A stretch of DNA of 64,000 bases from Cyclobacteriaceae bacterium (GTDB taxonomy: Bacteria > Bacteroidota > Bacteroidia > Cytophagales > Cyclobacteriaceae). Position numbers and translations under genes: made by a program. The stretch covers positions 62,001 to 126,000 of the forward strand of contig JAIBBC010000004.1 in the NCBI GenBank assembly GCA_019694875.1, read 5' to 3'. The stretch's first letter is position 1, and each line of letters opens with the position of its first letter. The notes below the pieces were generated by a model. The model was given only the letters and a program-made list of their open reading frames with translations. It had not been told where the DNA came from and did not search any database. Shown here piece by piece: positions 1,887 to 56,314 of the stretch.

Positions 1887-2933
1887 ATGAAGCTATCCGA
1901 ATTTAAGTTTGAAATCCCCAACAACCTGATCGCCCTCCGCCCTGCCGAAAACCGTGACGAATCGCGGTTGATGGTATTGCATCGGGATTCCGGTAAAATC
2001 GAGCATAAAGTTTTTAAAGACATCGTCAACTACTTCGGTGAAGGCGATATCATGGTCGGAAACGACACGATGGTGTTCCCGGCACGTCTCTACGGCCGCA
2101 AGGAAAAAACAGGTGCTAAAATCGAAGTATTTCTGCTTCGCGAGCTGAATGCCGAAATGCACCTGTGGGATGTGCTGGTTGACCCGGCCCGTAAAATCCG
2201 GGTTGGTAACAAACTTTACTTTGGCAATGGCGACCTCGTGGCGGAAGTTATTGATAACACTACATCACGCGGAAGAACAATCCGATTCCTGTTTGACGGA
2301 GATGCCGATGCCTTCAATAAAGTAATTGAAACGCTGGGCGAGACTCCGCTTCCGAAATACATCAAACGGAAAATTGAACCGGAAGACAAAGACCGTTTTC
2401 AAACCATCTTCGCAAAAAATAAAGGTGCCGTTTCAGCTCCTACAGCCGGACTTCACTTCACCAAACAACTCGTGAAGCGACTTCAGATTAAGGGTGTTGA
2501 CATGTCGTTCATCACGCTGCACATCGGATTGGGCACTTTCCGTCAGGTGGATGTTGAAGATCTGACCAAACACAAAATGGATTCCGAGAATTTTATTGTC
2601 GGACCGGAAGTGGTTGAAAAAGTTAACAAGGCGCTTGATAACAAGAATCGTGTGTGTGCAATCGGTACGACCTCCATGCGTGCGCTTGAATCTTCTGTGT
2701 CAGCCGGCAACCGGTTGAAAGTAAAAGAAGGCTGGACAGATAAATTTATTTTCCCGCCTTACGATTTCAAGATTTGCAACGCGATGGTCACCAACTTCCA
2801 CATGCCTGAATCGACTTTATTGATGATGGCAGCTGCATTTGGCGGATTTGATTTTGTGATGGAAGCATACAAAGTTGCGAAGAAGGAAAAGTACAAGTTC
2901 CTCACCTACGGTGACGCGATGCTGATTCTTTAA
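1887..2933 (+). CDS. queA: S-adenosylmethionine:tRNA ribosyltransferase-isomerase
   Basis: The 348-residue product begins [20 protein letters not shown], a typical QueA start, and contains the conserved blocks [34 protein letters not shown] and [13 protein letters not shown]. QueA transfers and isomerises the ribosyl group of AdoMet onto preQ1-modified tRNA, giving epoxyqueuosine at the wobble position. The length agrees with the family. The gene is single, facing a small leftward membrane-protein gene, with only 13 bp between the two stops. A full TAnnTTTG-type box lies upstream. No other queuosine gene is in the window. Confidence 0.96.
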
Positions 2934-2946
2934 TGGCTAAATCCGG

Positions 2947-3195
2947 TTAACGTTTCTCTACCCAGATCAGGTAGACAAAAAATGAAACAGCCACCGGGTA
3001 CAACAAAAAGTACAACAGATTGGGCGGAATGATCCGGATAAAAAAGGCAAACGGAACAATCAGCAAAATAATACCGGCCGTGATTATCACGGCCTTTTTT
3101 TGTTTCGCCAGCGGCTTGCGCACTACCTCAAAAATTGTGTAGATCAAAAACGTTACTGCAGCCACATTGAAGGCCAGCAAAATGAACCTGATCAT
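2947..3195 (-). CDS. Small three-helix membrane protein of unknown function
   Basis: An 82-residue protein with about three hydrophobic helices: residues 3-23 (LLAFNVAAVTFLIYTIFEVV), about 35-53 (AVIITAGIILLIVPFAFFI) and about 58-77 (LLYFLLYPVAVSFFVYLIWV), separated by short positive loops (RKPLAKQKK). I do not recognise a named family. It is divergent from ispD with just 23 bp between the two start codons, so the promoters must overlap or lie inside the opposite gene. The hydrophobic pattern and clean placement between queA and ispD support it as real. Confidence 0.7.
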   Translation of the reverse strand: MIRFILLAFNVAAVTFLIYTIFEVVRKPLAKQKKAVIITAGIILLIVPFAFFIRIIPPNLLYFLLYPVAVSFFVYLIWVEKR

Positions 3196-3203
3196 AGAAA
3201 TCG

Positions 3204-3211
3204 TATTTTCG
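3204..3211 (+). promoter_or_regulatory. Putative -7 box directly before ispD
   Basis: TATTTTCG (7 of 8 to TAnnTTTG) ends 7 nt before the ispD ATG. If it is used, the leader is almost nil. The site lies inside the 23-bp gap between two divergent starts. Confidence 0.35.
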
Positions 3212-3218
3212 TAAAAAT

Positions 3219-3896
3219 ATGCATTCGAAAGAATATGCCATTATCGTTGCGGGCGGCAAGGGAACCCGCATTAAAAGCGCGCTGCCAAAACAGTTCCTGG
3301 AACTGAACGGTCTGCCGATTTTGATGCATACGATTAACGCTTTTGTGCGTTATTCAAAAGACATCACCATCATTCTCGTTTTACCGGAAGATGACTTTCA
3401 GACTTGGCAAACGCTTTGCGCAAAACACAACTTTAGTAAACCCGTAGTTCTGCAAAAAGGTGGCGACACACGATTTCAATCAGTCAAAAATGGCCTCGAT
3501 AAAATTCAGGGTGATGGATTGGTGGCGATTCACGATGGCGTTCGTCCTCTTGTGAGTGAAGATATTATCGGAGCGTCATACAGGCTGGCGGCTGTTCATA
3601 AGAGTGCAGTTGCGGCTGTTCGTTTGAAAGAATCTATCCGCATGACGGATCAGGATAACACGAAGGCTGTTGATCGGTCGAAGTTCAGGCTCATTCAAAC
3701 TCCTCAAACCTTCGATGTTGCGTTAATTAAGAAAGCCTACCTGATCAAGGATGATCCGGGCCTGACGGATGATGCCAGCGTTGCTGAACGTTCGGGCCAC
3801 ACAATCTCGTTGTTCGAAGGCAGCTACGAAAACATCAAGATCACTACTCCCGAAGATTTGATTGTAGCGAAGGCATTGCTCGATGCCCGCAAATAA
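3219..3896 (+). CDS. ispD: 2-C-methyl-D-erythritol 4-phosphate cytidylyltransferase
   Basis: The 225-residue protein carries the nucleotidyltransferase loop AGGKGTR...LPKQF at residues 11-25, the HDGVRPLV block, and a C-terminal ITTPEDL motif, all hallmarks of IspD. The enzyme joins CTP and methylerythritol phosphate to give CDP-ME in the MEP isoprenoid pathway, cytoplasmic. Length agrees with the family (about 230). dxr, an earlier MEP step, is in this window too but 15 kb away and in another transcript. The ATG at 3219 is preceded closely by a promoter-like box. Confidence 0.96.
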   Translation: MHSKEYAIIVAGGKGTRIKSALPKQFLELNGLPILMHTINAFVRYSKDITIILVLPEDDFQTWQTLCAKHNFSKPVVLQKGGDTRFQSVKNGLDKIQGDGLVAIHDGVRPLVSEDIIGASYRLAAVHKSAVAAVRLKESIRMTDQDNTKAVDRSKFRLIQTPQTFDVALIKKAYLIKDDPGLTDDASVAERSGHTISLFEGSYENIKITTPEDLIVAKALLDARK

Positions 3897-3918
3897 AAAG
3901 TCCCGCGCATGCGGGACT
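3890..3918 (-). terminator. Terminator for the DUF2795 transcript, overlapping the ispD end
   Basis: Stem AGTCCCGC / GCGGGACT (3899-3906 and 3911-3918) with loop GCAT. A run of A lies on the left side of the + strand, which is a T run downstream when read leftward. It is therefore a good intrinsic terminator for the leftward DUF2795 gene and a poor one for ispD, whose stop codon it overlaps. Confidence 0.7.
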
Positions 3919-3979
3919 CAGTCATTTCTTATCGCTAAGTTTTTTGGCTAAAGACTTACGGCTAACGTCTGCGTAATGT

Positions 3980-4201
3980 CTAGTATTCGTCTTCGTTAAA
4001 GAAGAAGTCTTCTTTGGTCGGATAATCCGGCCAAATCTCTTCAATGCTCTCGTAGGGTTGTCCGTCATCCTCAAGTTCCTGCAGGTTCTCCACCACTTCC
4101 AACGGTGCACCGGAACGGATTGAGTAATCGATTAATTCGTCTTTCGTAGCCGGCCAGGGCGCGTCTTCAAGGTAAGAGGCAAGTTCGAGTGTCCAGTACA
4201 T
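3980..4201 (-). CDS. DUF2795-like small acidic protein
   Basis: A 73-residue acidic protein beginning MYWTLELASYLEDAPWPATKDELIDYSIRSG. The pattern (a helix, WPATKDEL, then a hydrophobic helix ending in VVENLQEL) fits DUF2795, a small fold common in Bacteroidota and Actinobacteria with no proven biochemical role. The C-terminus is rich in Asp, Glu and Phe (FFFNEDEY). I chose the ATG at 4201 over an upstream in-frame start because the family begins at this tryptophan-rich segment. It is followed by its own terminator, so it is probably monocistronic. Function unknown. Confidence 0.85.
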   Translation of the reverse strand: MYWTLELASYLEDAPWPATKDELIDYSIRSGAPLEVVENLQELEDDGQPYESIEEIWPDYPTKEDFFFNEDEY

Positions 4202-4413
4202 AGTTAAATCTCCCTTTTCAATTTCCCGCAAAAATAGAATTAATTACACCATAGTCAATACCCGGGATGGGTAAAGACTGGGCTAGCCCGTCCATTGCCA
4301 AATGGCGGAAAAAGTAACCGAACAGGGTGACCGAATATCTATGGACTGTCGGGTAAAAACGCCATATTTGCCCTCCCTGACCGGTTGGCAGGCTCAACTC
4401 GAACAATCGCACA

Positions 4414-6090
4414 ATGGCTGACGAAAAAATAATTTTCTCGATGACGGGGGTGAACAAGATTTACCCGCCCCAAAAACAGGTTCTCAAAAATATCTACCTC
4501 TCGTTCTTCTACGGGGCTAAAATTGGCGTGCTGGGGTTGAACGGATCGGGTAAATCGTCCCTCCTGCGCATCATCGCGGGCATCGATAAAGAGTTCCAGG
4601 GCGAGGTGGTATCCGACCTCAGTTTTTCAGTTGGCCTGCTGGAACAGGAACCGCAGCTCGATAAAACCAAAACCGTTAAGGAAATTGTGGAAGAAGGTGT
4701 TGCCGATGTGGTAAAGCTTCTGAAAGAATTTGAAGCGATCAACGAAAAGTTTGCCGACCCGGACCTCACCCCGGATGCCATGGATAAAATGATTGCGAAG
4801 CAAGGTGAGATTCAGGAAAAGCTTGATGCCGTAAATGCCTGGGAACTCGATAACAAACTTGAACGCGCCATGGATGCATTGCGTTGTCCGCCATCCGATG
4901 CAAAGATTGAATACTTATCCGGTGGTGAAAAAAGACGCGTTGCGTTGTGCCGCCTGCTGTTGCAGGAACCCGATGTTTTATTGCTTGATGAACCTACCAA
5001 CCACCTCGATGCCGAATCGGTGAACTGGCTCGAACAACATTTAAAACAATACAAAGGAACCGTTATCGCGGTAACGCACGATCGTTACTTCCTGGATAAC
5101 GTGGCCGGATGGATTCTTGAGCTTGATCGCGGAGAAGGCATTCCGTGGAAAGGAAATTACTCATCCTGGCTCGATCAAAAACAAAAGCGTTTGATCCAGG
5201 AGGAAAAAACGGAATCGAAAAGACAAAAAGCACTTGAGCGCGAACTTGAATGGGTGCGCATGAGTCCGAAAGGGCGGCATGCAAAAGGTAAAGCCCGCTT
5301 AACTGCGTATGAAAAGCTGTTAGGACAGGAAGGAAGGGAGAAAGAAGAAAAGCTCGAGTTGTACATCCCGCCCGGACCGCGTTTAGGTAATAAGGTTATT
5401 GAAGCCAATGGCGTTGCCAAAGCGTATGGCGATAAACTTCTGTATGAAAACCTGAACTTCCGTCTCCCGCCTGCCGGCATCGTGGGAATTATCGGACCGA
5501 ACGGTGCGGGTAAAACCACACTCTTCAAAATGATCACCGGAAAGGAAAAGCCGGATGCCGGTACATTTGAAGTTGGCGAGACTGTACAGATTGCATACGT
5601 TGATCAGGAACATGACGACCTGAAGCCGGATGATACCGTTTGGCAGGCGATCACCGGAGGTAATGAACTTATCAGCATCGGGGGCAAGGAGATGAACTCG
5701 CGTGCATACGTAAGCAAATTCAACTTTAACGGAACCGATCAGCAGAAAAAAGTAAAAGAACTGTCGGGTGGTATGCGCAACCGCGCTCACCTCGCCATCG
5801 CACTTAAACAAGGCGGCAACCTGTTGTTGCTGGATGAACCTACCAACGATCTGGACGTGAACACACTTCGCGCGCTGGAAGAAGGTCTTGAAAACTTTGC
5901 AGGTTGTGCCGTGATCATTTCACACGACCGCTGGTTCCTGGATCGGGTGTGTACACACATCCTTGCGTTTGAAGGTGATTCACAAGTGTTTTGGTTCGAA
6001 GGAACATTCAGTGAATACGAAGAGAATAAACGCAAGCGGTTAGGTGATGATCAGCCGCACCGGATCAAGTATAAGAAATTGGTGAAGTAA
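4414..6090 (+). CDS. ettA: Energy-dependent translational throttle ATPase EttA (ABC-F)
   Basis: The 558-residue protein has two ABC cassettes without membrane segments: Walker A GLNGSGKSS in the first and GPNGAGKTT in the second, signatures LSGGEKRR and LSGGMRNR, and Walker B LLLDEPTNHLD and LLLDEPTNDLD. The linker between them contains SPKGRHAKGKARL, typical of the EttA subgroup of ABC-F proteins. EttA binds the ribosomal E site and couples early elongation to the ATP/ADP ratio. Length is normal. The gene stands alone; the 212 bp before it hold no convincing gene. Confidence 0.95.
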   Translation: MADEKIIFSMTGVNKIYPPQKQVLKNIYLSFFYGAKIGVLGLNGSGKSSLLRIIAGIDKEFQGEVVSDLSFSVGLLEQEPQLDKTKTVKEIVEEGVADVVKLLKEFEAINEKFADPDLTPDAMDKMIAKQGEIQEKLDAVNAWELDNKLERAMDALRCPPSDAKIEYLSGGEKRRVALCRLLLQEPDVLLLDEPTNHLDAESVNWLEQHLKQYKGTVIAVTHDRYFLDNVAGWILELDRGEGIPWKGNYSSWLDQKQKRLIQEEKTESKRQKALERELEWVRMSPKGRHAKGKARLTAYEKLLGQEGREKEEKLELYIPPGPRLGNKVIEANGVAKAYGDKLLYENLNFRLPPAGIVGIIGPNGAGKTTLFKMITGKEKPDAGTFEVGETVQIAYVDQEHDDLKPDDTVWQAITGGNELISIGGKEMNSRAYVSKFNFNGTDQQKKVKELSGGMRNRAHLAIALKQGGNLLLLDEPTNDLDVNTLRALEEGLENFAGCAVIISHDRWFLDRVCTHILAFEGDSQVFWFEGTFSEYEENKRKRLGDDQPHRIKYKKLVK

Positions 6091-6120
6091 GTTGTTGTCA
6101 GCATTGACGTTGCTTTTATT

Positions 6121-6152
6121 AACGGAAAATGCTTTCACAAACGTTTTCTGTT
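6121..6152 (+). terminator. Weak hairpin downstream of ettA
   Basis: AACGGAAAATG (6121-6131) can pair with CGTTTTCTGTT (6142-6152) over 11 positions using two G-T pairs. No T run follows directly, so termination is only possible, not clear. Confidence 0.35.
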
Positions 6153-6233
6153 TAAACTCGATTTAAACTACAGTTCAAACGCAACTTTGCTGCGTACGAA
6201 CCGTAAACTGTCATTTTCGAATAAACCCCTTGT

Positions 6234-7229
6234 ATGAAAAAAGTTCTCAAGATCACGCTGATCGTGCTCACGGTCATTATTGTCGCCATCACCGGTGTTA
6301 TCGGATACGTAAAAACAGCCTTGCCTGCTGCTAATGTTTCAGACGCATCCGACTTAAAAATCGATTATACTGCCGAACGCATCGACCGCGGTAAGTATCT
6401 GGCCAATAATGTTGCGATGTGTATCGACTGTCATTCCACGCGCGACTTTACCGTTTTCGGGGGACCCTTGATTCCCGGCACGGAAGGAAAAGGCGGTGAA
6501 AAGTTCAGCAAAGAACTTGGCTTCCCGGGAGATTTCTATGCAGCCAACATTACGCCTGCGGCCATTGGCAACTGGACTGACGGTGAGTTGTTCCGCGCCA
6601 TCACAACCGGTGTTTCAAAAGACGGCCACGCGCTATTTCCGGTAATGCCCTATCTCAACTTCGGTAAGATGGATAAAGAAGATATTTACTCCATCATCGC
6701 GTACATCCGAACATTAAAACCGATCGAGAATAAAATCCCGGCTTCAGAGCCCATGTTCCCGGTAAGCATCCTGATCAACACCATGCCGACAGAGGCCACT
6801 TTTAGCAGCATTCCCTCCCAAGAAGAACTTATTCCCTACGGAAAATATTTGTTTACCATGGCGAGTTGCAGCGATTGCCACACACCGATGGATAAAGGCA
6901 CACCCATCGAAGGGAAGTTTGCTGCCGGTGGATTTGAATTCAATCTTCCTGACGGAACTGTGCTGCGTTCGGCAAACATTACACCGGATAAGGCAACGGG
7001 TATCGGCAACTGGACGGAGGAGTATTTTGTATCCCGTTTTAAATCCTTCAGCGATTCAGCGTATGTGGCGCATAAAGTCGGGCCGAAAGAGTTTAAAACC
7101 ATTATGCCATGGCCCGGTTACACGCACATGGACGAATACGATCTGAAAGCTATTTACGCTTACCTGCGAACATTGCCGGCTGTTAATAATCAGGTAATAA
7201 AATTTGAAGAGCGGCAGCAGACCGAATAA
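6234..7229 (+). CDS. Membrane-anchored dihaem cytochrome c
   Basis: 331 residues: an N-terminal membrane anchor or signal (residues 6-24) followed by two homologous cytochrome c domains. Haem sites are CIDCH (63-67) and CSDCH (212-216); the likely distal Met ligands are in FPVMPY (Met138) and IMPWPGY (Met291). Repeated blocks NITP...GNWT in both halves show internal duplication. The fold resembles the cytochrome subunits of periplasmic alcohol or sugar dehydrogenases. No dehydrogenase gene adjoins it, so the electron donor is unknown. It probably passes electrons in the periplasm. Stop and start distances suggest a monocistronic unit. Confidence 0.9.
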   Translation: MKKVLKITLIVLTVIIVAITGVIGYVKTALPAANVSDASDLKIDYTAERIDRGKYLANNVAMCIDCHSTRDFTVFGGPLIPGTEGKGGEKFSKELGFPGDFYAANITPAAIGNWTDGELFRAITTGVSKDGHALFPVMPYLNFGKMDKEDIYSIIAYIRTLKPIENKIPASEPMFPVSILINTMPTEATFSSIPSQEELIPYGKYLFTMASCSDCHTPMDKGTPIEGKFAAGGFEFNLPDGTVLRSANITPDKATGIGNWTEEYFVSRFKSFSDSAYVAHKVGPKEFKTIMPWPGYTHMDEYDLKAIYAYLRTLPAVNNQVIKFEERQQTE

Positions 7230-7259
7230 GGAACGCTTCGGTAGTTAGTGCACTTCGCG

Positions 7260-7267
7260 TACCTTAG
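7260..7267 (+). promoter_or_regulatory. Putative -7 box directly before the DUF486 gene
   Basis: TACCTTAG (7 of 8 to TAnnTTTG) ends 4 nt before the ATG at 7272. It is one of several similar boxes set this close to a start codon in the window. Confidence 0.35.
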
Positions 7268-7271
7268 CGGT

Positions 7272-7640
7272 ATGAAAGCACTGACTACCGTTGTCTTATT
7301 AATTCTCTCCAACACCTTCATGACCTTTGCGTGGTACGGCCATCTCAAATTCAAGGAGATGAGCTGGAGTCAAAACCTGGGTTTGGTTGCGGTTATCTTC
7401 ATCAGCTGGGGAATTGCGTTATTCGAATATGCTTTGCAAGTTCCCGCCAACAGAATCGGTTATTCAGAATATGGAGGACCCTTCTCGCTGGTTCAGTTAA
7501 AAGTAATCCAGGAGGTAATTACACTGACGGTTTTTGTAATTTTTTCGCTGGTGTTCTTTAAGAACGAAACATTCCGCGTCAATCACCTGATTGGCTTCGT
7601 ATTCCTGGTGCTGGCTGTCTACTTCATTTTTAAGAAGTAA
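7272..7640 (+). CDS. DUF486 / DMT-like small membrane protein
   Basis: 122 residues with four hydrophobic helices. The start MKALTTVVLLILSNTFMTFAW...GHLKF and the later blocks ISWGIALFEY, PANRIGY and QLKVIQEVITL are those of DUF486, a family related to small drug/metabolite transporters. The substrate is not known. I chose the ATG at 7272 over a GTG at 7248 because the family begins here and the extra residues lack hydrophobic character. It faces the leftward acyltransferase gene with 6 bp between stops. Confidence 0.88.
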   Translation: MKALTTVVLLILSNTFMTFAWYGHLKFKEMSWSQNLGLVAVIFISWGIALFEYALQVPANRIGYSEYGGPFSLVQLKVIQEVITLTVFVIFSLVFFKNETFRVNHLIGFVFLVLAVYFIFKK

Positions 7641-46016: not shown

Positions 46017-47315
46017 TTATTTCTGTGACTTGTTTACACCCGGTTCACGTTTCAGGAACTCATCATACAATTGTGTATGACGACTTACCATTGGAATCTG
46101 CCATCCATCTATGAATACATGAACGATGTTTGTTTTTGTTTCAAATGGATCACCATCGCTCACAACAATGTTTGCCATCTTTCCAACTTCAATTGATCCA
46201 AGCTTATCGCTCACGCCAAAAATTTCTGCCGGAACAATCGTAACTGCTTTTAACGCTTCTTCACGACCCATTCCATACGCAGCAGCAAAGCCGGCATTGA
46301 ACAGAAGATTACGCACGTTTTCAGTTTCCGATGTACGCAGTGCAACTTTTACTCCGGCCTTCTTCATCAACCCCGGGTTCGCATAGGCTTTATCGTAGCG
46401 ATCGTAGTCACGGCTCGGGAGTGCCAGCACCGGACCCGTGATTACCGGGAAACCAGCTTTGGCAAGGTCGGCTGCAACGCGCCAGCCTTCGCGACAGCCG
46501 GTGAGCACAACATTCTTAAGCTTGCGTTCTTTGATCCACTTCAATGCTTCGAGAATATCTTTTGCAGCATTCACTTCCAGAAGGATGGCACGCTCTCCTC
46601 TAACTACGCCCAGCATAGCTTCCATTTCAGGATAGTACTCAACGCCTTTACTTTTCGTGGCGGAATCGAGCTTGTGGTATTGAATCGCACGGTCGAACAC
46701 TTCATTGAGCTTCTTCATGGCTTTCTCGCTTGCAGTTTTGATTTCATCATCTGTTCTGCGATCGAAACCACCCCTTCTTCCGGTTGACGGGAAGTTTACC
46801 ACTACTCCTTTGAAGTTTACATACATCTGGTCTGGCGTATAGCCGTGCAGATTGATCAGTGCCGCAGTACCCGGAAACATTCCGCCTACAGGAGCGGTGA
46901 GCACCGTGGTTACTCCGTTTACGCGGGTTACAGGAATCAGTACTGAGTTCGGATTAACCGCAGTCAATGCCTGCATTTGCGGAATAACTTCTCCGATTTC
47001 ATTCAAATCGCGTGTGCGCTGATCCGAGCCTACTTCCGACAAGCCGAGGTTTGTACCACCATCGATGAATCCCGGATAAATCCATTTGCCTTTGCAGTCG
47101 ATTACTTCAGCACCCTGCGGTGCCGTAGTAGCAGCGCCTACGTAGGTAATCTTTCCATTGGAAATTATTACCGTACCGTTTGCGATTGTTCCTTTTGTAA
47201 CGGTTTCAATAGTTGCATTTGTGAGCACGAAGGTACCGTACTTTCCTTTCGGTGATTGAGCAAAAGCCGCAACACCTGCACAAATGAAGAGAAGTATATA
47301 CATTATCTTTTTCAT
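46017..47315 (-). CDS. Exported amidohydrolase-fold protein lacking metal ligands (pseudoenzyme)
   Basis: 432 residues with a signal peptide (YILLFICAGVAAFAQ) and the amidohydrolase layout: an N-terminal beta sandwich (TVIISNGKITYVG), barrel, and the closing GSIEVGKMANIVVSDGDP. At the metal motif it reads GFIDGGTNLGL, where the neighbour has IDAHSHL: both His are replaced (Gly87, Asn89). The later His positions are also lost (LLEVNAAKDI; VLTGCREGW) and the Asp loop is RTSETEN. It is therefore unlikely to hydrolyse by the normal metal mechanism. It is last in a three-gene leftward run, 5 bp after the intact member. Confidence 0.85.
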   Translation of the reverse strand: MKKIMYILLFICAGVAAFAQSPKGKYGTFVLTNATIETVTKGTIANGTVIISNGKITYVGAATTAPQGAEVIDCKGKWIYPGFIDGGTNLGLSEVGSDQRTRDLNEIGEVIPQMQALTAVNPNSVLIPVTRVNGVTTVLTAPVGGMFPGTAALINLHGYTPDQMYVNFKGVVVNFPSTGRRGGFDRRTDDEIKTASEKAMKKLNEVFDRAIQYHKLDSATKSKGVEYYPEMEAMLGVVRGERAILLEVNAAKDILEALKWIKERKLKNVVLTGCREGWRVAADLAKAGFPVITGPVLALPSRDYDRYDKAYANPGLMKKAGVKVALRTSETENVRNLLFNAGFAAAYGMGREEALKAVTIVPAEIFGVSDKLGSIEVGKMANIVVSDGDPFETKTNIVHVFIDGWQIPMVSRHTQLYDEFLKREPGVNKSQK

Positions 47316-47320
47316 GGTGA

Positions 47321-48712
47321 TTAGCGGTTTTTGTCAGCAAATTTCACATTCAGTAAGAACTCGGCATTTTTCATGCACTCATCATGATCGTGCGACAATG
47401 TTTCTTCGAACACAGCATCGGTAATGTCGATGGTCTGTTTCGGATCCACATACAAGCGCTGGTCGTCAGCATCTTTCTCACGATCAAATTTCACAACACC
47501 ATCGATGACGGTGTACATCGGGATGGCATATACTGATAACGGGTGACCTTTGAAGATTACCACATCTCCATCTTTGCCAGGTTCGAGTGAACCGACACGA
47601 TTCTCAATACCCAGTTGTTTCGCAGGATTGATGGTGATCAGTGAAAGCGCTTCCTCATCCGTTAAGCCGCCATATTTTTGAGTCTTGGCTGCCTCGTGAT
47701 ATAAGTGACGGGTAAGTTCGGCATCGTCAGAGTTGATAGATGTTACTACACCGTTGCGTGTGAGGATGGCCGCATTGTATGCGGTTGAATAGTAAACCTC
47801 AAACTTGTACGCCCACCAGTCGGCAAACACCGATGCCATAGCGCCCTGTGCAGCAAGCTCGGGTGCAACTTTGAATCCTTCATTCACGTGCTGAAACACG
47901 AGACGCTTAATCCCGAAATCTTTGCAAACTTTTAACAGCATGTAAATTTCATCGGCCCGGTAACTGTGGCAATGGATGATGATCTCACCACGAAGAATGG
48001 CTGCGATTGTTTCCATGCGCAAATCATACCTGGGTGGAGCACCGCGGAAACCCTTTTGATTTTTAGAAGCGTTGTATTTGTTCCAGCTCTCCATGTACTC
48101 CTTGCCTTCGGAGAATGCCTGACGGATCACAAATTCAACACCCATACGTGTGTTTGGAACAATACCGGCTCCGTTGTTACCGTGCACGCGGGTTGGGTTT
48201 TCACCCAACGCAAACTTGATGGTACGCGGAGCGCCTTCCATCATCAGTACTTTAGGATCAACCGTTCCGTACCGGTGCTTGATCGTTTGACACTGGCCAC
48301 CAATGGCGTTTGCTGATCCGTGCATAGCGTGAGAGATCGTAACGCCTCCGGCCACCGCGCGATACATACCCACATCCAGCGGATCGAGATCATCGCCTTC
48401 CCATACCATTGCAGACACAGGCGTTGTTGCTTCGTTCACGGCATCCAGCGCGAGGTGAGAGTGTGCGTCAATGATTCCGGGCATTACATGATAGCCTGTA
48501 GCGTCAATCACTTTTGCACCCGCGGGTGCCGCCAGGTTTTTTCCGATCTGAGAGATCTTACCATCCTTAATCAATACATCGGTGTTTTCTTTAACTCCTT
48601 GTGTGATCGTAAGCACCGTTCCGTTTTTGATGAGCACAGTACCCCGCTCAACTTGTTGAGCCATGCCGCTGACAGCGATCAGCAAACAGGCTATGATTAT
48701 AAATTTCTTCAT
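47321..48712 (-). CDS. Exported amidohydrolase, metal site intact
   Basis: 463 residues with a signal peptide (IIIACLLIAVSGMAQQ). Metal ligands are present: His84 and His86 in IDAHSHL, His247 and His249 in IIIHCHS, His275 in VFQHVNEGF, and Asp in INSDDAE (about 329-330). The end LEPGKDGDVVIFKGHP is the composite-sandwich return. It resembles imidazolonepropionase- and prolidase-like amidohydrolases of Bacteroidota; the substrate is unknown. It sits between two relatives that have lost these ligands, with 5-8 bp gaps, so all three are probably made together and exported. Confidence 0.88.
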   Translation of the reverse strand: MKKFIIIACLLIAVSGMAQQVERGTVLIKNGTVLTITQGVKENTDVLIKDGKISQIGKNLAAPAGAKVIDATGYHVMPGIIDAHSHLALDAVNEATTPVSAMVWEGDDLDPLDVGMYRAVAGGVTISHAMHGSANAIGGQCQTIKHRYGTVDPKVLMMEGAPRTIKFALGENPTRVHGNNGAGIVPNTRMGVEFVIRQAFSEGKEYMESWNKYNASKNQKGFRGAPPRYDLRMETIAAILRGEIIIHCHSYRADEIYMLLKVCKDFGIKRLVFQHVNEGFKVAPELAAQGAMASVFADWWAYKFEVYYSTAYNAAILTRNGVVTSINSDDAELTRHLYHEAAKTQKYGGLTDEEALSLITINPAKQLGIENRVGSLEPGKDGDVVIFKGHPLSVYAIPMYTVIDGVVKFDREKDADDQRLYVDPKQTIDITDAVFEETLSHDHDECMKNAEFLLNVKFADKNR

Positions 48713-48720
48713 GGTCGTGA

Positions 48721-50502
48721 TTATTTAGGGAGTCTTTTGCCTTCGGTTGGAAAGCTTCCGTATTCTGCCACCGTTGACGTTCCTTTAAAAGTATCGCCTT
48801 CGATTTTAACAGCAACTTCAACTGTGATATCGCTGCCTCCGTAATTGAACGTAAAATTGAAGGTTAATGAATTACCATCAAGCTTCGCATTGTCGATACC
48901 CACTGCAGGGTTAATGCTGCCACCACTCATGGTTCCGGAAATGGTGTTTCCTTCCTTCTTCAGTGTAAGCTTTGATTGTTCAATTCCGTTTGGAGTTTCC
49001 GTAGAGATGTTCCACTCACCCTCGGCCTTTACACCGCTGTCTTTCGAACCTTCGCCTTTTTTGCCATCCTTAGACTCTTTCGAGTCTTTTACTTCGAACT
49101 TGTACATTGTTCCTTCTACAAACACGTAGCGAACTTTTGCTTTTTCATTGAAGTATGGCTTATCGCTGATTACAAGGTTGGCGATTTTGCCGTTGTCAAC
49201 TGAACCCAGGCGATCGGATAACCCGAGCATCTCAGCCGGTGTTGTGGTTAACGAAGCGAGCGCAGCATCTTCCGGCAAGCCAGCCTCGATCATTCTGCGC
49301 AGGTTACCCTGAATGTTGCCCGACTTTGCGCTAAGTGTTGAGAAGCCAAACTTCACTCCTGCCTTCTGAAACGTTGCTGCCTGGCCTACATACTTGGCCA
49401 TGAACTCTGCCTTTCTTTTTTCGAGTGCAGCTTTCTCTTCGGCTGTAGCGGTTTTGGGAGCTTCCTCTCTTTTAGGCTCTTCCTTTTTAGGTTCTTCCTT
49501 TTTGGCTTCGTCTTTCTTGCCTTCTTCCTTTTTTGAATCGTCTTTCTTCTTGTCGTCTTTTTTGTCCTTGTCTTCCGGGAGGTCGAGACTCAGGAACACT
49601 TTGGCATTAGTCGATTTAATTTTATTCACGATGTCCCAGCCTTCTTTCAATTCGGCTAGCATCAGCGAAAATCCAAGATCACTTTGCAGCGTAAGCACAC
49701 GCTGCGCATCTATTACACGCTCGGCTTTGAAAAGCACGGGCTGGCGTTTGTCTACCACAGGAAAAAGTGCCTCAATTACGCGGTCGGTTGCAGGCCGCTG
49801 AATGCCAGCACGATTCGATGCATAACTGTTTTCATACGCACGACTAAGGGCAGCCTGGCGATAGAGTTCACGATACTTGGCCATTACGCCCATCACCGTT
49901 CCCGGATAAACTCCGCGTGCGGGTGACAGCTCGGAATAAAAAGAAGATTTGTTAACGAGTACCATTTCATCGGCCGACTTACCGCCAAGCAAAATGATCG
50001 ATCCGTTACCGGGCATCATTCCCCCATAGGGCACCACATGTGCTGCCGTGAAACCCAGTGCGCGAAGTTCTTCGATTGACTTCTCGCTGGGATTAAGTGA
50101 TACGCGAACATCATTTTGGGGTGTAATGCCAGCCTCTTCCGGTTTCGGATTACCCGGATCTTTCGGTCTTTGGCCGCGCTCTTCATCTTTGGGTTTGTTT
50201 AGCCCGACACGCGAAAGGCCATCTATAAACCCTGCATATACATACATGCTGTCGGCTTTGATGACAATCGCATCAGCGGGGATGGAAACATTTTTTCCAA
50301 CGGAAACGATCAGGCCGTCTTTCATGACAACGGTTCCCATATCAATTTTCCGGCCCGGGGCCTGCACAATGTTAACATTAGTAATGGCGTATGTTCGGGA
50401 AACAGGCGCCAGTTCGTCCTGCGCGAAAAGCATTGCCGGCCAGCAAAAAACCATAGCCGACAGCATCTTTCTCAGCAGAACACTACTGAATAATTTCTTC
50501 AT
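48721..50502 (-). CDS. Exported amidohydrolase-fold pseudoenzyme with KE-rich insert and beta tail
   Basis: 593 residues: a signal peptide (LSAMVFCWPAMLFAQ), beta sandwich, degenerate metal motif GFIDGLSRVGL (His replaced by Leu96 and Arg98), a barrel interrupted by about 40 residues made almost only of Lys, Asp and Glu, the composite-domain return GSVDNGKIANLVIS, then a second charged linker (KESKDGKKGEGSKDSG) and a C-terminal beta domain of about 100 residues (GEWNISTETPNGIEQ...FKGTSTVAEYGSFP). I chose ATG 50502 because it opens the signal peptide; the frame is open 30 codons further. It heads the three-gene run. Confidence 0.82.
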   Translation of the reverse strand: MKKLFSSVLLRKMLSAMVFCWPAMLFAQDELAPVSRTYAITNVNIVQAPGRKIDMGTVVMKDGLIVSVGKNVSIPADAIVIKADSMYVYAGFIDGLSRVGLNKPKDEERGQRPKDPGNPKPEEAGITPQNDVRVSLNPSEKSIEELRALGFTAAHVVPYGGMMPGNGSIILLGGKSADEMVLVNKSSFYSELSPARGVYPGTVMGVMAKYRELYRQAALSRAYENSYASNRAGIQRPATDRVIEALFPVVDKRQPVLFKAERVIDAQRVLTLQSDLGFSLMLAELKEGWDIVNKIKSTNAKVFLSLDLPEDKDKKDDKKKDDSKKEEGKKDEAKKEEPKKEEPKREEAPKTATAEEKAALEKRKAEFMAKYVGQAATFQKAGVKFGFSTLSAKSGNIQGNLRRMIEAGLPEDAALASLTTTPAEMLGLSDRLGSVDNGKIANLVISDKPYFNEKAKVRYVFVEGTMYKFEVKDSKESKDGKKGEGSKDSGVKAEGEWNISTETPNGIEQSKLTLKKEGNTISGTMSGGSINPAVGIDNAKLDGNSLTFNFTFNYGGSDITVEVAVKIEGDTFKGTSTVAEYGSFPTEGKRLPK

Positions 50503-50730
50503 GAACGAAAGGTTTAGGTAAATCTTAAAGGGAGTAATATAACCATGTTTCGGACAGACATTCAAATGAAATTGACAGGTGGTTTGAGGCATTTACTACC
50601 GGATTTTTGGCCCTATCGTGCCGCTTCCTGCAGTTGAATACACCGGTTTAACGGTTCATTACAATACTCTTGGGAAGCGTGAATCCAAAGGCCATGTTTG
50701 CACCGTAAAAGAGTACAAAAACACATTCTT

Positions 50731-52197
50731 ATGACTTTTTCATTCGCCAAACGCATCACTGCCACTTTCGTGGGAATGACTTTGCTGATCCAGCCGCTTA
50801 CCGCGCAGACTACTGCGAGTAATTCATCGAAATCTTCTTCGGTAAGCATTTCGTCCGATTCGCGCGACAATACACACCGTTGGAAGACTTCCAATGGTTT
50901 CGACAATTTTAATGTTGAATACCGCGGGAAGATTGAGATCACGGATGATGATAAAGACATCAAGAGCATGTCGGATGACGGTTACCTGGAAATCAGCAAA
51001 ACGGTGTTCGGAAGCAAGCGTTCGATCGTGATCGAATCGAAAGGCAACGGAAAAATCGTGCGCGAATATTATGAAGGTCGCACACAGGTTAACTGGGATC
51101 CGGCTGGAAAAAATTGGTTATCGGAAATTCTGCCGGAAGTTGTCCGCACCACAACATTGTGTGCTGAAAGTCGTGTAGCACGCTTTTTCCGCCAGGGCGG
51201 AACGAATACAGTTCTAAGTGAAATCGATAAAATGGAGAGTGACTATGTCCGTTCTGCGTATGCAAACTTATTGATGAAGCAGCCTGTGCAGGTAAAAGAC
51301 TATTCTGTTGTCATTAACCGGTATGCCGAAAAAACCGAATCGGATTATTACATGACAGAATTCTTGAAAAACCATACGGCCAAATTCTTACAGAATCCGG
51401 AGGCAACCACTGCGTTATTCTCAGCAACCCGCAAAATGGATTCCGACCACTACAAAACCGTGGTGATCAAAGAAGCACTGCGCGGCCAGATGGCATCCAT
51501 TCAAAACGTGAAAATTATTCTGCAGGCAGCGAGCCAGATGGAATCGGATTACTACATCTCGGAAGTTTTGAGTTCGCTGCTGAAGCAAAGTAACCTGACC
51601 GATGCGGTGGTTGCAGAGATTATTACCACAACAGGTTCGATTGAATCGGATCACTACAAAACGGTTGTTCTTACCGAGGCCATGGAAAAATCCGGTCTCT
51701 CAGCTACCTCTTACAACCGCGTGGTAGAATCGGTTAAAACAATTGAATCCGACCATTACATTACCGTAGTACTGAACGATTTGTTGAAAAACAAACTTAC
51801 GGACGAAGCGCTCAACACGCTGTTAACCATTTTCCCTTCCATTGAATCGGATCACTATAAGACTGAAGTAATTACTTCCCTGTTGAAACGCCAGGATTTA
51901 AAGGAAGAGCAATTTGATAAATTAATGGATGCCTTCGACCGCATGGACAGCGATCACTACAAAACGGTGGTGTTGCAACAGGCAATCGGTTCCAGCAACC
52001 TGAGCGAAGCGAAACTGATAAAAATTATCCAGATGACGAGCGGTATGGACTCCGATCACTACATCACGGAAGTGCTTACCTACGCAGCACCCAAAGTAAA
52101 AGCGGGAAGTGCGAATGTTCAGAGCGCATATCGAACCGCTGCCAAGAATATTTCTTCTGAAACCTATTACGGACGTGCCCTGCGGGCGATTGAATAA
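50731..52197 (+). CDS. Exported protein with nine 34-residue SD(H/Y)Y repeats
   Basis: 488 residues. A signal peptide (ITATFVGMTLLIQPLTAQ) leads to a Ser-rich linker, a beta-rich domain (about 55-130; FNVEYRGKIEITDDDKDI, DDGYLEISKTVFG), the block WLSEILPEVVRTT, then nine helical repeats starting at residues 168, 202, 236, 270, 304, 338, 371, 405 and 439, and a weaker tenth to the end. Consensus: (M/I)(E/D)SD(H/Y)Y(K/I)T(V/E)VL. The layout recalls the extracytoplasmic part of some BlaR1-like M56 peptidases, here without the peptidase; that link is from memory. Function unknown. I chose ATG 50731; a TTG 11 codons earlier is less likely. Confidence 0.8.
   Translation: MTFSFAKRITATFVGMTLLIQPLTAQTTASNSSKSSSVSISSDSRDNTHRWKTSNGFDNFNVEYRGKIEITDDDKDIKSMSDDGYLEISKTVFGSKRSIVIESKGNGKIVREYYEGRTQVNWDPAGKNWLSEILPEVVRTTTLCAESRVARFFRQGGTNTVLSEIDKMESDYVRSAYANLLMKQPVQVKDYSVVINRYAEKTESDYYMTEFLKNHTAKFLQNPEATTALFSATRKMDSDHYKTVVIKEALRGQMASIQNVKIILQAASQMESDYYISEVLSSLLKQSNLTDAVVAEIITTTGSIESDHYKTVVLTEAMEKSGLSATSYNRVVESVKTIESDHYITVVLNDLLKNKLTDEALNTLLTIFPSIESDHYKTEVITSLLKRQDLKEEQFDKLMDAFDRMDSDHYKTVVLQQAIGSSNLSEAKLIKIIQMTSGMDSDHYITEVLTYAAPKVKAGSANVQSAYRTAAKNISSETYYGRALRAIE
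51232..52146 (+). repeat. Nine tandem 34-codon repeats
   Basis: Units of 102 bp (one of 99 bp, the sixth) each open with a codon for Met, Ile or Thr, then E/D-S-D-H/Y-Y. Spacing by residue: 34, 34, 34, 34, 34, 33, 34, 34. The DNA has drifted (GAATCGGAT, GATTCCGAC, GACAGCGAT for the same residues), so selection acts on the protein, not the DNA. Confidence 0.85.
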
Positions 52198-52246: not shown

Positions 52247-53350
52247 ATGGTTTCAAAGCTTTCTTATATGGGTTATGCACTCCGCAGAATAGCGCTGAAA
52301 ACCGCAGTTTCGTCCTGCCTCGGGCTTTTCTTCTTCTTTTACCTGCAATACAGCGAAAGCCTTACCGGAACTATTCAGCCGATTGAAAAAACGATTTCCG
52401 GAATTCTGTTAAGCATTTTAATCGCAAATTGTGCGGGATTCGCTGCAGGCTTCCTGAACCAATGGCTCGACCGGTTGTTTCCGTGGCAATCGGGGTTCGC
52501 AGGCCGGTTCTTATTGGGCTACATTGCCCAGGTTATTGGTCTTTCACTTGTTGCGGGCGGAATTTCAGTATTGCTGATTGAATCTTTTGGCCCCGCGATC
52601 TTCTGGAGAGGACTGAGTATAACAGACGAAGATCTTGCCTGGAAATTTTTTATCCTGATTGTTGTAGTCGTTTTTATCTATAAGGTCATTTATACCATCC
52701 TTTATTCTTACCGTCAGTATGCAGTTACACAAATTGAGACGGTACAAAATGAACGGAAACAACTTGAACTGCAGTTCGAAGCATTAAAAAGTCAGCTTAG
52801 TCCACATTACCTATTCAACAGCTTAAACACTATTTCGTCACTCATTTATAATGATCCGCAAACGGCTGAGCAATTTATCCGCAGACTGGCCCTTACCTAT
52901 CAGTACATTCTTTCAACGCAGCAAAAGAAATATGTTACACTTTCGGAGGAACTTGATTTCGTTCAGTCGTATTACTATTTGTTGCGAATCCGGTTTCAGC
53001 AGTCGCTTACGCTGGAGGTTAATCTTCCCAAATCAATCCTGACCAGCCCGATCCCACCCCTCACACTTCAGTTGCTGGTGGAGAATGCAGTAAAGCACAA
53101 CACCATTACTCCCGAAAAACCCCTGTTGATTTACATCAGCGCAGTGGACAACACGCAGCTGAGAGTTACCAACACCAAGAACGAATCCGTGCAGTCGTCC
53201 GCATCTTTCAGAATCGGAATTGAAAACATCCGCAAACGGTACGAATTCTTCACGGCTAAAAAAGTTGAAGTGAAGGACGATGAAAAGTTCATTGTTTCAC
53301 TTCCTGTGCTGCGGTTGCGGGAAACAACGCTTCAAAAATCAATTGCCTGA
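52247..53350 (+). CDS. LytS-type sensor histidine kinase
   Basis: 367 residues: four membrane helices in the first 155 residues (near 24-35, 50-70, 88-111 and 134-154), a coiled stretch (ETVQNERKQLELQFEALKSQ), the His_kinase motif LSPHYLFNSLNTISSL with phospho-acceptor His187, and the ATPase N box LLVENAVKHN (Asn280) with a G box GIENIRKRYEFF. Such kinases phosphorylate LytTR regulators. No large sensor domain is seen, so the signal may be sensed in the membrane. The stop shares a base with the next gene (TGATG). Confidence 0.92.
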   Translation: MVSKLSYMGYALRRIALKTAVSSCLGLFFFFYLQYSESLTGTIQPIEKTISGILLSILIANCAGFAAGFLNQWLDRLFPWQSGFAGRFLLGYIAQVIGLSLVAGGISVLLIESFGPAIFWRGLSITDEDLAWKFFILIVVVVFIYKVIYTILYSYRQYAVTQIETVQNERKQLELQFEALKSQLSPHYLFNSLNTISSLIYNDPQTAEQFIRRLALTYQYILSTQQKKYVTLSEELDFVQSYYYLLRIRFQQSLTLEVNLPKSILTSPIPPLTLQLLVENAVKHNTITPEKPLLIYISAVDNTQLRVTNTKNESVQSSASFRIGIENIRKRYEFFTAKKVEVKDDEKFIVSLPVLRLRETTLQKSIA

Positions 53351-54408
53351 TGAAGAAATACTTTATCTATAGTCCTTTCTTCCGGTTGCTGGCCCCGCCC
53401 GTTTACGGTATCCTTACGTATCTCATTATTTTGCTCATCAACAATTCTTTATTGCAATTGAACGAAATTTTCAGCGGCCAGGAAGTTTACATGTGCATTG
53501 GATTGACGTTTATATGCTTTGAATCTGCCAGGCTCGTAATCATTGGCCTGCACAGGTTTTTAAAAAATAAATTTTCGAAAGCGAGGTTCCTGATCCAGTT
53601 TGTTGCCGGTACAGTATTGCCGACCACGTTGGTGATACTCGTTATATCGCTGTATTTCACGTATGTGATCGGGTACAGCATTGCATTCACACAACTCATT
53701 TTATTCACGATCATTTTTGCGCTTACCGCGATTTTATATAATGCACTCTACGTCAGCAACGACTACCAGCTTCGTGAAAACACGTTGAAGCTAACCACCG
53801 AACGACAGCAGCGTGAAGTGCTGGAAATGGAGATGGATGAGTTCCGCAACGACATTAATCCGGATTTGCTTTACGAGAGCCTGGAGAATGTAATCAGCCT
53901 GATCAACCGCAGGAACAGCGATGCAGAAGAATACATTGATTATCTCGCCAGCGCCTACCGCTATGTGCTCACCAATCGCCAGCAGGAATTGATTTCACTG
54001 CAGCACGAAATAGACGCAGGAAGGAACATCGTGCGGTTACTGAATGAAAAATATTTCGGCCAGGTTAAACTGGAAGCTTCTCTTTCCGATGGCGACATGA
54101 ATCTTCAGTTAATTCCCGGGTCGTTGCCCGTGGCGATTGAATCGATTGTACGGAATACCATCATCTCAGCAAACGATCCGCTGGTTATCAAATGCTACCT
54201 TGAAGATGAGGAATATCTCGTTCTTCAATGCAAGCTGAACGATCGTTTGATCAAACACAGCGAAAGCATCCTGGCGCTCGCGCGGCTGCAAAAGTCATAC
54301 ACCCTGTACAGCGAAAAGCCTTTGATTCAGGTGAAAGCTTACGAGGAGAATTATATTAAATTGCCCGTTCTGCGTCTTGCAGAAGAAGCCCTGACGCACG
54401 AATCATGA
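53350..54408 (+). CDS. LytS-like pseudokinase: catalytic His and Asn lost
   Basis: 352 residues with the same plan as the gene before it: membrane helices, a coiled linker (TTERQQREVLEMEMDEF), then NDINPDLLYESLENVISLI aligned to LSPHYLFNSLNTISSL. The phospho-acceptor His is Asp172, and in the N box IESIVRNTI the key Asn is Ser265. The C-terminal ENYIKLPVLRL matches EKFIVSLPVLRL of the kinase, confirming homology. It probably cannot autophosphorylate and may act as a partner that senses or controls the active kinase. It overlaps both neighbours (TGATG and ATGA), so all three are coupled. Confidence 0.85.
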   Translation: MKKYFIYSPFFRLLAPPVYGILTYLIILLINNSLLQLNEIFSGQEVYMCIGLTFICFESARLVIIGLHRFLKNKFSKARFLIQFVAGTVLPTTLVILVISLYFTYVIGYSIAFTQLILFTIIFALTAILYNALYVSNDYQLRENTLKLTTERQQREVLEMEMDEFRNDINPDLLYESLENVISLINRRNSDAEEYIDYLASAYRYVLTNRQQELISLQHEIDAGRNIVRLLNEKYFGQVKLEASLSDGDMNLQLIPGSLPVAIESIVRNTIISANDPLVIKCYLEDEEYLVLQCKLNDRLIKHSESILALARLQKSYTLYSEKPLIQVKAYEENYIKLPVLRLAEEALTHES

Positions 54409-55178
54409 AGGTACTGATCATTGAAGATGAAATTCCTGCCGCAGAAAAGCTGAGCCGATACCTGGCGAAGTACGATGCTTCTATTGTTGTTATAGCTCAC
54501 CTGACTTCTGTACAGGAGGCGGTGGACTGGCTGCAGGAAAAACAGGACACAGTTGACCTTATTTTCATGGACATCCAGCTTACCGATGGGTTAAGTTTCC
54601 AGATCTTCCAGCAGGTAAACATTCGCAAGCCCGTTATTTTCATTACGGCTTTTAATGAATTCGCGCTTGATGCCTTTAAAGTGAACAGCATCGATTATTT
54701 GCTGAAGCCAATAACGTTTACGGATTTATCCTCAAGTCTTAAAAAGCTCGATAACCTGCGGGAACAATTGCAATGGAATCCTCAAAAAACGGAACAGCTG
54801 CAGGAAACTTTTGTAACACCCAAGACAACTGCATATAAAAACCGGTTTATGGTGAAGCTGGGTGATCACATCCGTTCAATCACAGCCGATCAGATTGCTT
54901 TGTTTTATGCCGATGGCCGCGATGTGTACCTCGTGACAACCCAGAATCGGAAGTTCATTGTCGACTATACACTCGAAACACTGGAGGATTTGCTGGAGCC
55001 GAAAACATTTTTCAGGATCAACCGCACCTACATCCTTAACATCAACTCGATTAAAGATGTGATTGTCTATTCCAACAGCCGGTTAAAAATTACCCTGACG
55101 CAGGAATTCGATAAAGAAATTATTGTTAGCCGTGAGAAAGTGGGGCCATTTAAGGAATGGTTTGACGGCAGTCACTAA
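54405..55178 (+). CDS. LytTR-family response regulator
   Basis: 257 residues: a receiver domain with acidic pocket IIEDE, phospho-acceptor Asp56 in IFMDIQL, Thr in FITAFN and Lys in LLKPIT, then a linker and a LytTR DNA-binding domain (MVKLGDHIRSITADQIALFYADGRDVYLVTT, cut here to its first and last parts: FMVKLGDHIRSI and YADGRDVYLVT; with FRINRTYILNINSIKDV). It is the output of the kinase pair before it. The LytTR targets are unknown; the repeat-protein gene upstream is one candidate. It overlaps the leftward lipoprotein gene by 4 bp (CTAA). Confidence 0.93.
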   Translation: MKVLIIEDEIPAAEKLSRYLAKYDASIVVIAHLTSVQEAVDWLQEKQDTVDLIFMDIQLTDGLSFQIFQQVNIRKPVIFITAFNEFALDAFKVNSIDYLLKPITFTDLSSSLKKLDNLREQLQWNPQKTEQLQETFVTPKTTAYKNRFMVKLGDHIRSITADQIALFYADGRDVYLVTTQNRKFIVDYTLETLEDLLEPKTFFRINRTYILNINSIKDVIVYSNSRLKITLTQEFDKEIIVSREKVGPFKEWFDGSH

Positions 55179-56314
55179 AGCGGGGCAAGCATTGGAATAA
55201 ACTGCCGTTGTGACTGGCGAACATTGGTACCAATTATTTCACGGTACCCTAAGCCTGTAACCAACACGTTACCTTTATTCAAATGCCAATAGTTAGTTTG
55301 ACTTACAAACAGGCCATCGGTCACATAAATACCCATCGCAGGAAGTTCACCGTAGTAGGTATCAACAACTTCATCAAGAGACGTAATCTCATAGATATAG
55401 AATTTTCCCGACTCCGTAAGACCTCCCCATCCATGTTCGAGTTTCGCTTTTGAGGGAACAACATAAAGCGGATCGGCCTGTTCAACGTCTTCTCCTTCAT
55501 CGTAAGTCATGAGATAACCATTGTCTTCAAACCAATAACTATCTCCCTCTCCCCCGGAGAGGTAGCTAAGGTGAACTTTAAAGATATTTTTTGAAGGGAG
55601 CTTACTTTCTACCGTTACTGTCAACTCATCTTCGCCAAAAATTGACGACTCACTGTACGTCCAATAATTCCCGACTTCTAAAAAAGCAAAATCACCGTAG
55701 GTTATTGGCGGGGTAACCCGGGTAGTTGAGGCGGGGTTCCCGGCCACATATCGTACAAGACGCATACTTGCCGTCTCATCTTCAAAATTTCCTGTGCCAA
55801 TCAAGCCCACGGTTGGCGAAAAGTATTGATAGTATGTAGATGATCCCGTTTGTATTTTAACCTTTACAGCATCGGTAATCTCGTTTTGTCCGGTGGTGAT
55901 CGAAACGTTCACCTCGTCAATCGAATAGGTGTAGGTTGCTGTGCCCTTCTTCACTTTCCACGAAGTTCCTTTTGGTTTCCCAAACTTACACTCGATTTGA
56001 TACGCCTCCGGGTCACGTAGCCGGTATGATGTATAGAAGTTTCCGTCCTTCACGGTCCAATACTGCGTAGGGAATACGGTTATGAGATCGGAATAATTTC
56101 TGACGAGAAATGTATCAACCCCAATTTGTTCCTCGATAACGCTCTTTATAGAGTCGTCTCCAAAAAAATTTAGCGCGTAGTAATGATATTCAGTTCCTTC
56201 AGCGAGGAAACTTAGTTCAATTTTCGGACCACCAGAAGTCTCACCGTCATCGCTGCACGAAGACAATAAGGCCATGAATCCAAACAACAAAAAAGAGGCA
56301 ACAAATAATCTCAT
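55175..56314 (-). CDS. Lipoprotein with two homologous beta-rich halves
   Basis: 379 residues. The lipobox ALLSSC ends the signal peptide (Cys20). The rest is beta-rich and looks duplicated: residues about 35-190 match about 200-365 in order, with pairs such as YWTVKDGNFYTSYR / SYWFEDNGYLMTYD, YTYSIDEV / IYEITSLDEV, and FSPTVGLIGTG / LNKGNVLVTGLG. I know no family for it. It would sit on the periplasmic or outer face of the envelope. The next gene upstream, SUI1, is 22 bp away on the same strand. Confidence 0.75.
   Translation of the reverse strand: MRLFVASFLLFGFMALLSSCSDDGETSGGPKIELSFLAEGTEYHYYALNFFGDDSIKSVIEEQIGVDTFLVRNYSDLITVFPTQYWTVKDGNFYTSYRLRDPEAYQIECKFGKPKGTSWKVKKGTATYTYSIDEVNVSITTGQNEITDAVKVKIQTGSSTYYQYFSPTVGLIGTGNFEDETASMRLVRYVAGNPASTTRVTPPITYGDFAFLEVGNYWTYSESSIFGEDELTVTVESKLPSKNIFKVHLSYLSGGEGDSYWFEDNGYLMTYDEGEDVEQADPLYVVPSKAKLEHGWGGLTESGKFYIYEITSLDEVVDTYYGELPAMGIYVTDGLFVSQTNYWHLNKGNVLVTGLGYREIIGTNVRQSQRQFIPMLAPL

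Follow-up and report, generated by a model that had tools for sequence, protein, structure and literature searches.

The gene at 50731..52197 of the window, the 64,000-nucleotide stretch of a Cyclobacteriaceae bacterium contig that was analysed here, encodes a repeat protein with a predicted solenoid fold. Because its relatives examined sit beside signalling genes, the protein probably forms the exterior portion of a signalling system of the envelope that has not been described before. As the best explanation, at a probability of roughly 0.55, we propose that this solenoid is the extracytoplasmic member of an envelope signalling operon of four genes and acts through a pseudokinase, HK2. Three elements are new: the recurrent operon of solenoid, kinase, pseudokinase and LytTR regulator, the redeployment of the module alongside other regulators, and what appears to be a concerted switch of the repeat motif. 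The gene and its parts are as follows.

50731..52197, plus strand: solenoid gene, 488 amino acids, product probably exported, homologues found
50731..50808, plus strand: signal-peptide-like N-terminus, residues 1-26 (ending in LTAQ), without Cys, by reading of the sequence
50842..51225, plus strand: N-terminal domain (N-domain), residues 38-165, antiparallel beta sheet plus helix, by predicted model and conservation
51232..52194, plus strand: repeat array, residues 168-488, nine SD units and a degenerate tenth, by sequence and model

The initial annotation had described a solenoid behind a signal peptide and a beta-rich domain. The predicted model agreed with this layout, and the start of the protein is signal-peptide-like, from which export may be inferred. 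A 19-residue hydrophobic N-terminal segment above the hydropathy cut of 1.5 was detected in 12 of 17 aligned family proteins, and the segment of the window protein was one of the five below this cut. The N-domain (residues 38-165) was among the best conserved parts of the protein. No peptidase family match was observed for the window protein, in line with the annotated absence of a peptidase domain, and for PF05569 in particular no row was obtained at E<=10.

By recount, the nine SD(H/Y)-type motifs start at residues 168, 202, 236, 270, 304, 338, 371, 405 and 439, as counted from the M, I or T preceding the acidic residue. The period is 34, and the one-residue break noted before is the single 33-residue step from 338 to 371. 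The core of the units reads (M/I/T)(E/D)SD(H/Y)(Y/V); the (M/I) start given earlier holds for most units, but unit 2 starts with T. After S-D, His is present in six of the nine units and Tyr in three. A degenerate tenth unit (ISSETYY) is located at about 474, with a helix that begins two residues past its Ser in the predicted model. The 34-residue periodicity is far above chance: the BLOSUM62 autocorrelation for residues 156-488 was 225 at lag 34, and the best shuffle gave -46 (2000 shuffles, lags 20-71). The codon differences within the core were also found again, Ser being TCG, TCC or AGC in different units. The description as near-perfect 34-residue repeats applies to the core but not to whole units, because pairwise identity over 34 residues was 15-41% among the eight units compared, the unit with ESDYV at 169 falling outside the search pattern. 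The units are thus near-identical in the short core only, and have diverged outside it.

The predicted structure (pLDDT 88.5) was a solenoid with two main helices in each of the nine units. In this model the core Ser of all nine units occupies the N-cap position, one residue before the predicted helix start, and for this reason the S-D of the core looks largely structural. The initial annotation had set the repeats apart from HEAT-like units by their conserved polar surface. This contrast is left unsupported, because a helical-hairpin solenoid is predicted whose structural matches include HEAT/ARM proteins, and because the invariant S-D at N-cap and N1 may account for much of the conservation. 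The earlier reading of a binding surface was only partly right, and the interpretation as a whole is partly supported. The two-helix repeat fold is shared with the HEAT, ARM and TPR families at the level of the predicted model, and the Pfam search of the window protein listed none of their models up to E<=10, HMMER filters dropping weak matches in such a search. The two best Foldseek matches were designed repeat proteins, and the TM-scores of the top three to the query were 0.09, 0.11 and 0.37. Generic solenoids of many functions at such low scores, together with the regular position of Ser before the helix start, are also what would be seen for an ordinary helical repeat protein carrying no special surface, in which the motif is a helix cap only. 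We regard this simpler view as rather unlikely; it has to be weighed against the behaviour of the motif across relatives, described below.

Three genes follow the solenoid gene and, together with it, nearly touch or overlap (52197/52247, 53350/53350 and 54408/54405).

52247..53350, plus strand: HK1, LytS-type histidine kinase (PF06580, 8.1e-23)
53350..54408, plus strand: HK2, LytS-type pseudokinase (PF06580, 1.1e-10)
54405..55178, plus strand: LytTR response regulator, RR (PF04397, 3.3e-20; PF00072, 4.4e-14)

HK1 has four hydrophobic segments and retains both the H-box (SPHYLFN) and the N-box (ENAVKHN). HK2 also has four hydrophobic segments, its phospho-His is replaced (NPDLLYESLE) and its N-box is unrecognisable. 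PF06580 kinases and a PF04397 regulator are likewise the components of LytS/LytTR systems, and the window operon holds the phospho-His motif in HK1 and a LytTR regulator with a receiver. The operon differs from such systems in having two kinases, one of them without the phospho-His, plus the probably exported solenoid. A neighbourhood with LytTR genes, which the initial annotation had raised for checking, was thus observed. We then compared 26 loci (the window, L002-L010 and L042-L057), in which genes were clustered by blastp and read downstream of the solenoid. The order solenoid, HK1, HK2 and LytTR-type regulator was found in 20 of them (the window, L002, L003, L005-L010 and L042-L052), where the kinases and regulators of relatives are assigned by clustering with those of the window and the Pfam matches refer to the window genes. 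Several of these loci are closely related (L006-L008), and the 20 do not count as 20 independent cases. The six remaining loci are a contig edge (L004), two M56/BlaI loci (L053 and L056), two loci with a sigma gene (L054 and L055) and one of fragments (L057). In L009 (11866-12781), two reading frames of 156 and 109 amino acids together make up the LytTR-type regulator, a split that may be an assembly error.

The phospho-His was present in HK1 at all 20 operon loci and in HK2 at none, its place in HK2 being taken by Asp (16 loci), Glu (2), Val (1) or Ser (1). The ENAVKHN N-box gave the same result (20/20 for HK1 and 0/20 for HK2), with ENA retained in the HK2 of L047. A search of the window's own genome with the HK1 profile (E<=1e-5) gave ten places, of which nine carry the P-H motif, HK2 being the one exception. 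Judged from the sequences, HK2 is not decaying, because its dN/dS was 0.050-0.069 in five pairs; this was slightly higher than that of HK1 in each pair, with dS near or beyond saturation. Conservation was then measured separately for the two halves of the kinases at 13 matched loci. The membrane half was better conserved in HK2 (0.39) than in HK1 (0.25), and the cytoplasmic half less so (0.35 for HK2 and 0.50 for HK1). This pattern would fit HK2 as the receiver of a periplasmic state and HK1 as the enzyme. By hydropathy, the gaps between predicted hydrophobic segments of the window kinases are at most 31 residues, too short to hold an extracytoplasmic domain; the number of such segments in kinases of relatives ranged from 2 to 5.

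Taken together with the gene order, we propose the following scheme. In the periplasm, the N-terminal beta domain and the solenoid would encounter a ligand or partner, and they would relay this state to the membrane part of HK2. HK2 would pair with the active HK1 and set its activity, and HK1 would phosphorylate the LytTR regulator. The repeats, the predicted fold, the recurrent gene order, the missing phospho-His of HK2 and the co-occurrence come from computation, and what we infer is the role of the solenoid as input rather than target, the pairing of HK1 and HK2 as a heterodimer and the direction in which the signal flows. For FasBCA of streptococci, a heterodimer with divided labour between two sensor-kinase-like proteins has been reported (PMC12675982). 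FasBCA, like the window operon, combines a single regulator with two membrane proteins that resemble sensor kinases, a likeness drawn here from their description, and an exported solenoid is not mentioned in the part of that report at hand (PMC12675982). Adjacency of the genes leaves the direction of the signal unfixed, and the solenoid could be a regulated product or an inhibitor. As an inhibitor or scaffold in the periplasm, it would keep the kinases inactive and release them once damage to the envelope draws it off. This possibility, to which we give a minor share of belief, overlaps with the proposed sensor role and differs from it in the sign of the signal; it agrees with an apparently soluble and exported solenoid that is always accompanied by membrane kinases lacking an obvious sensor domain, and the results here suit an inhibitor as well as a positive sensor. 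If the proposed sensor role is correct, a conserved histidine pseudokinase, its partner and its probable input gene are all encoded within a single operon, and signalling by the heterodimer is therefore directly testable.

Nine solenoid loci were found in genome contigs, those closest to the window protein being L002 and L003 of Cyclobacteriaceae MAGs. In the set of relatives, 11 of 59 genomes matched the solenoid, the own genome counted. HK2-profile scores of at least 437 bits were obtained for 10 of these 59 genomes (own included), the next score being 167, and the same ten genomes carry the long solenoid match. The eleventh match, G025 (L057), holds no more than a piece of the N-domain, spread over two frames, and a short HK2 remnant; these pieces (4297-7311) are apparently what is left of a copy of the system that was lost. 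The family is patchy, as matches were found in 12 of 395 and 13 of 394 genomes of two phylum samples. Among the 12 matching genomes of the 395-genome sample, the kinase operon accounts for six, M56/BlaI and the sigma gene for two each, and a short protein of the N-domain only for the last two. Matches without a repeat array were those of G416, G432 and G267 (short proteins), G314, G466 (109 amino acids) and G487 (M56 plus N-domain). Lipoprotein-like proteins of 121-126 amino acids with the solenoid N-domain only were also noted in genomes of one genus (L110, 4169-4534; L111, 4271-4645; L112, 4490-4870).

A second context was found at four loci (L053, L056, L106 and L107), where a BlaI-type repressor and an M56 protein with C-terminal repeats are followed by a stand-alone solenoid. 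For these loci in the same order, the M56 proteins matched PF05569 at 3e-30, 5.6e-26, 1.9e-29 and 6.3e-24, and the BlaI-type proteins matched PF03965 at 1.1e-32, 1.6e-31, 1.4e-35 and 1e-30. The fused part in the M56 proteins of L053 and L056 matches the repeats and not the N-domain. In L108 (G487), the M56 protein (PF05569, 2.5e-17) has an N-domain match at residues 316-439, beside which no match to the repeats was detected. Solenoid-family parts are thus located C-terminal to an M56 peptidase as repeats in four proteins and as the N-domain in one. Past the N-domain match, the L108 protein (2274-4169, minus strand) continues in a charged, coiled-coil-like stretch, and its reading frame runs to the contig end. 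A third context is represented by L054 and L055, where the solenoid lies behind a small sigma-70-family gene (PF08281, 1.7e-09 and 5.6e-18) and two more conserved small genes.

Because relatives adjoin BlaI and M56 proteins ending in repeats of the same type, the resemblance to BlaR1-like M56 proteins that the initial annotation had pointed out is real, extending to the one M56 protein that bears the N-domain rather than repeats. Neither M56 nor BlaI was present among the scanned genes called beside the solenoid of the window. Regulators frequently adjoin their targets, and the solenoid is the first gene of its run and has a sequence without a membrane anchor; these points would suit an output of the LytTR regulator, such as a structural or adhesive protein of the envelope, encoded beside its regulator. 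We consider such an output role unlikely, since members of this one family adjoin regulators of three unlike kinds (kinase/LytTR, BlaI-M56 and sigma-70 family), and the repeats or the N-domain are fused C-terminally to M56, which, as far as the part of the source at hand describes it, is the position of the BlaR1 sensor (PMC7593790). The sensor of BlaR1 itself is there said to resemble class-D beta-lactamases (PMC7593790). The solenoid family thus has relatives with BlaI and M56 as in BlaR1/MecR1, but in none of our searches did the solenoid show the class-D beta-lactamase likeness that this source describes (PMC7593790).

The motif was then compared across relatives, using eight units per protein; unit 1, whose N3 stays V or I, was left out. 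The alignment of 17 proteins comprises 14, including that of the window, that are of SDHY type, and three (L017, L018 and L019) of SDYE type. For the SDHY type, Ser at N-cap and Asp at N1 were invariant (112/112 units each), N2 was His in 97, Tyr in 14 and Asn in one of the 112 units, and N3 was Tyr in 110. For the SDYE type, 22 of the 23 units that have letters carry Glu at N3, and none of the three proteins, which share the same operon, has His at N2 in its eight aligned units. Units of other relatives are mostly SDHH (L049), SDYY (L050 and L051) or SSGD (L053 and L056). The invariant Asp, the frequent His and the mostly SDHH units of L049 could be taken as a ladder of metal sites made of Asp, His and Tyr. 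The metal role of the core His is weakened, however, by the Tyr replacement in SDHY-type units and by the SDYE-type relatives without His, and Ser and Asp fit helix capping; such a ladder is therefore considered very improbable.

At non-motif positions, window unit i against unit i of L014, L016, L017 and L018 beat all 20000 permutations on average, the diagonal mean being only just above the best permutation for L017 and L018. For L019 the diagonal mean was reached by 21 of 20000 permutations. The best single match was on the diagonal for 8/9 units of L014, 6/9 of L016, 6/9 of L017, 5/9 of L018 and 1/9 of L019, in a test for which the alignment itself is biased towards the diagonal. The units thus stay orthologous while N2 and N3 differ together between lineages, weakly so for L019. 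It appears from these comparisons that, in an ancestral array, every unit but the first underwent a change at the same pair of positions. Helix capping alone does not require such joint change of orthologous units, which argues against the view of the motif as a cap and nothing else. In the solenoid tree the three SDYE proteins were grouped with a support of 1.000. A single switch event is likely but not proven, because the partner tree (HK1, HK2 and RR) joins the SDHY-type L052 with the SDYE-type L048 at a support of 0.538. The concerted switch offers a case for how repeats change together and yet keep unit identity. A bolder and quite doubtful extension is that the N-domain plus solenoid, each of which also occurs fused to M56 peptidases, form a portable extracytoplasmic sensor on three transduction routes (kinase/pseudokinase/LytTR, M56/BlaI proteolysis and sigma-70-family control). 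Its ladder of identical motifs would read a ligand that is itself repetitive, and a change of ligand would oblige all motifs to change together. If this is true, two-component systems, proteolysis of the BlaR1 type and control by sigma factors have one class of sensor in common.

Among known families, the solenoid repeat is distantly like DUF4476 (PF14771), as far as profile matches indicate. The relative L018 scored 29.0 bits, above the curated cut-off of 22.5, with the best stretch at residues 259-322; the window protein scored 14.7 bits, or 17.0 as a DNA match, below the gathering cut-off of 22.5. Eight of the 17 aligned solenoid-family proteins matched at E<=1. The PF14771 model has 91 positions, compared with 320 residues of the solenoid array. 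The DUF4476 protein of the own genome carries FSSDR...FEDQR at roughly unit spacing. In this genome, L078 (C4:1009732) is a large protein with several similar beta-type repeats and a C-terminal DUF4476 domain with solenoid-like units.

Downstream of the regulator, a lipoprotein-like gene of 379 amino acids is located at 55175-56314 on the minus strand, with no Pfam match above cut-off and no counterpart in the other 25 loci. Upstream, and divergent from the solenoid gene, three tandem amidohydrolase-like genes, so labelled by reading of the sequence, occupy 46017-50592 on the minus strand. The same three-gene cluster is also located upstream in L002, L003, L042 and L043, and one further member of the cluster is present in L051.
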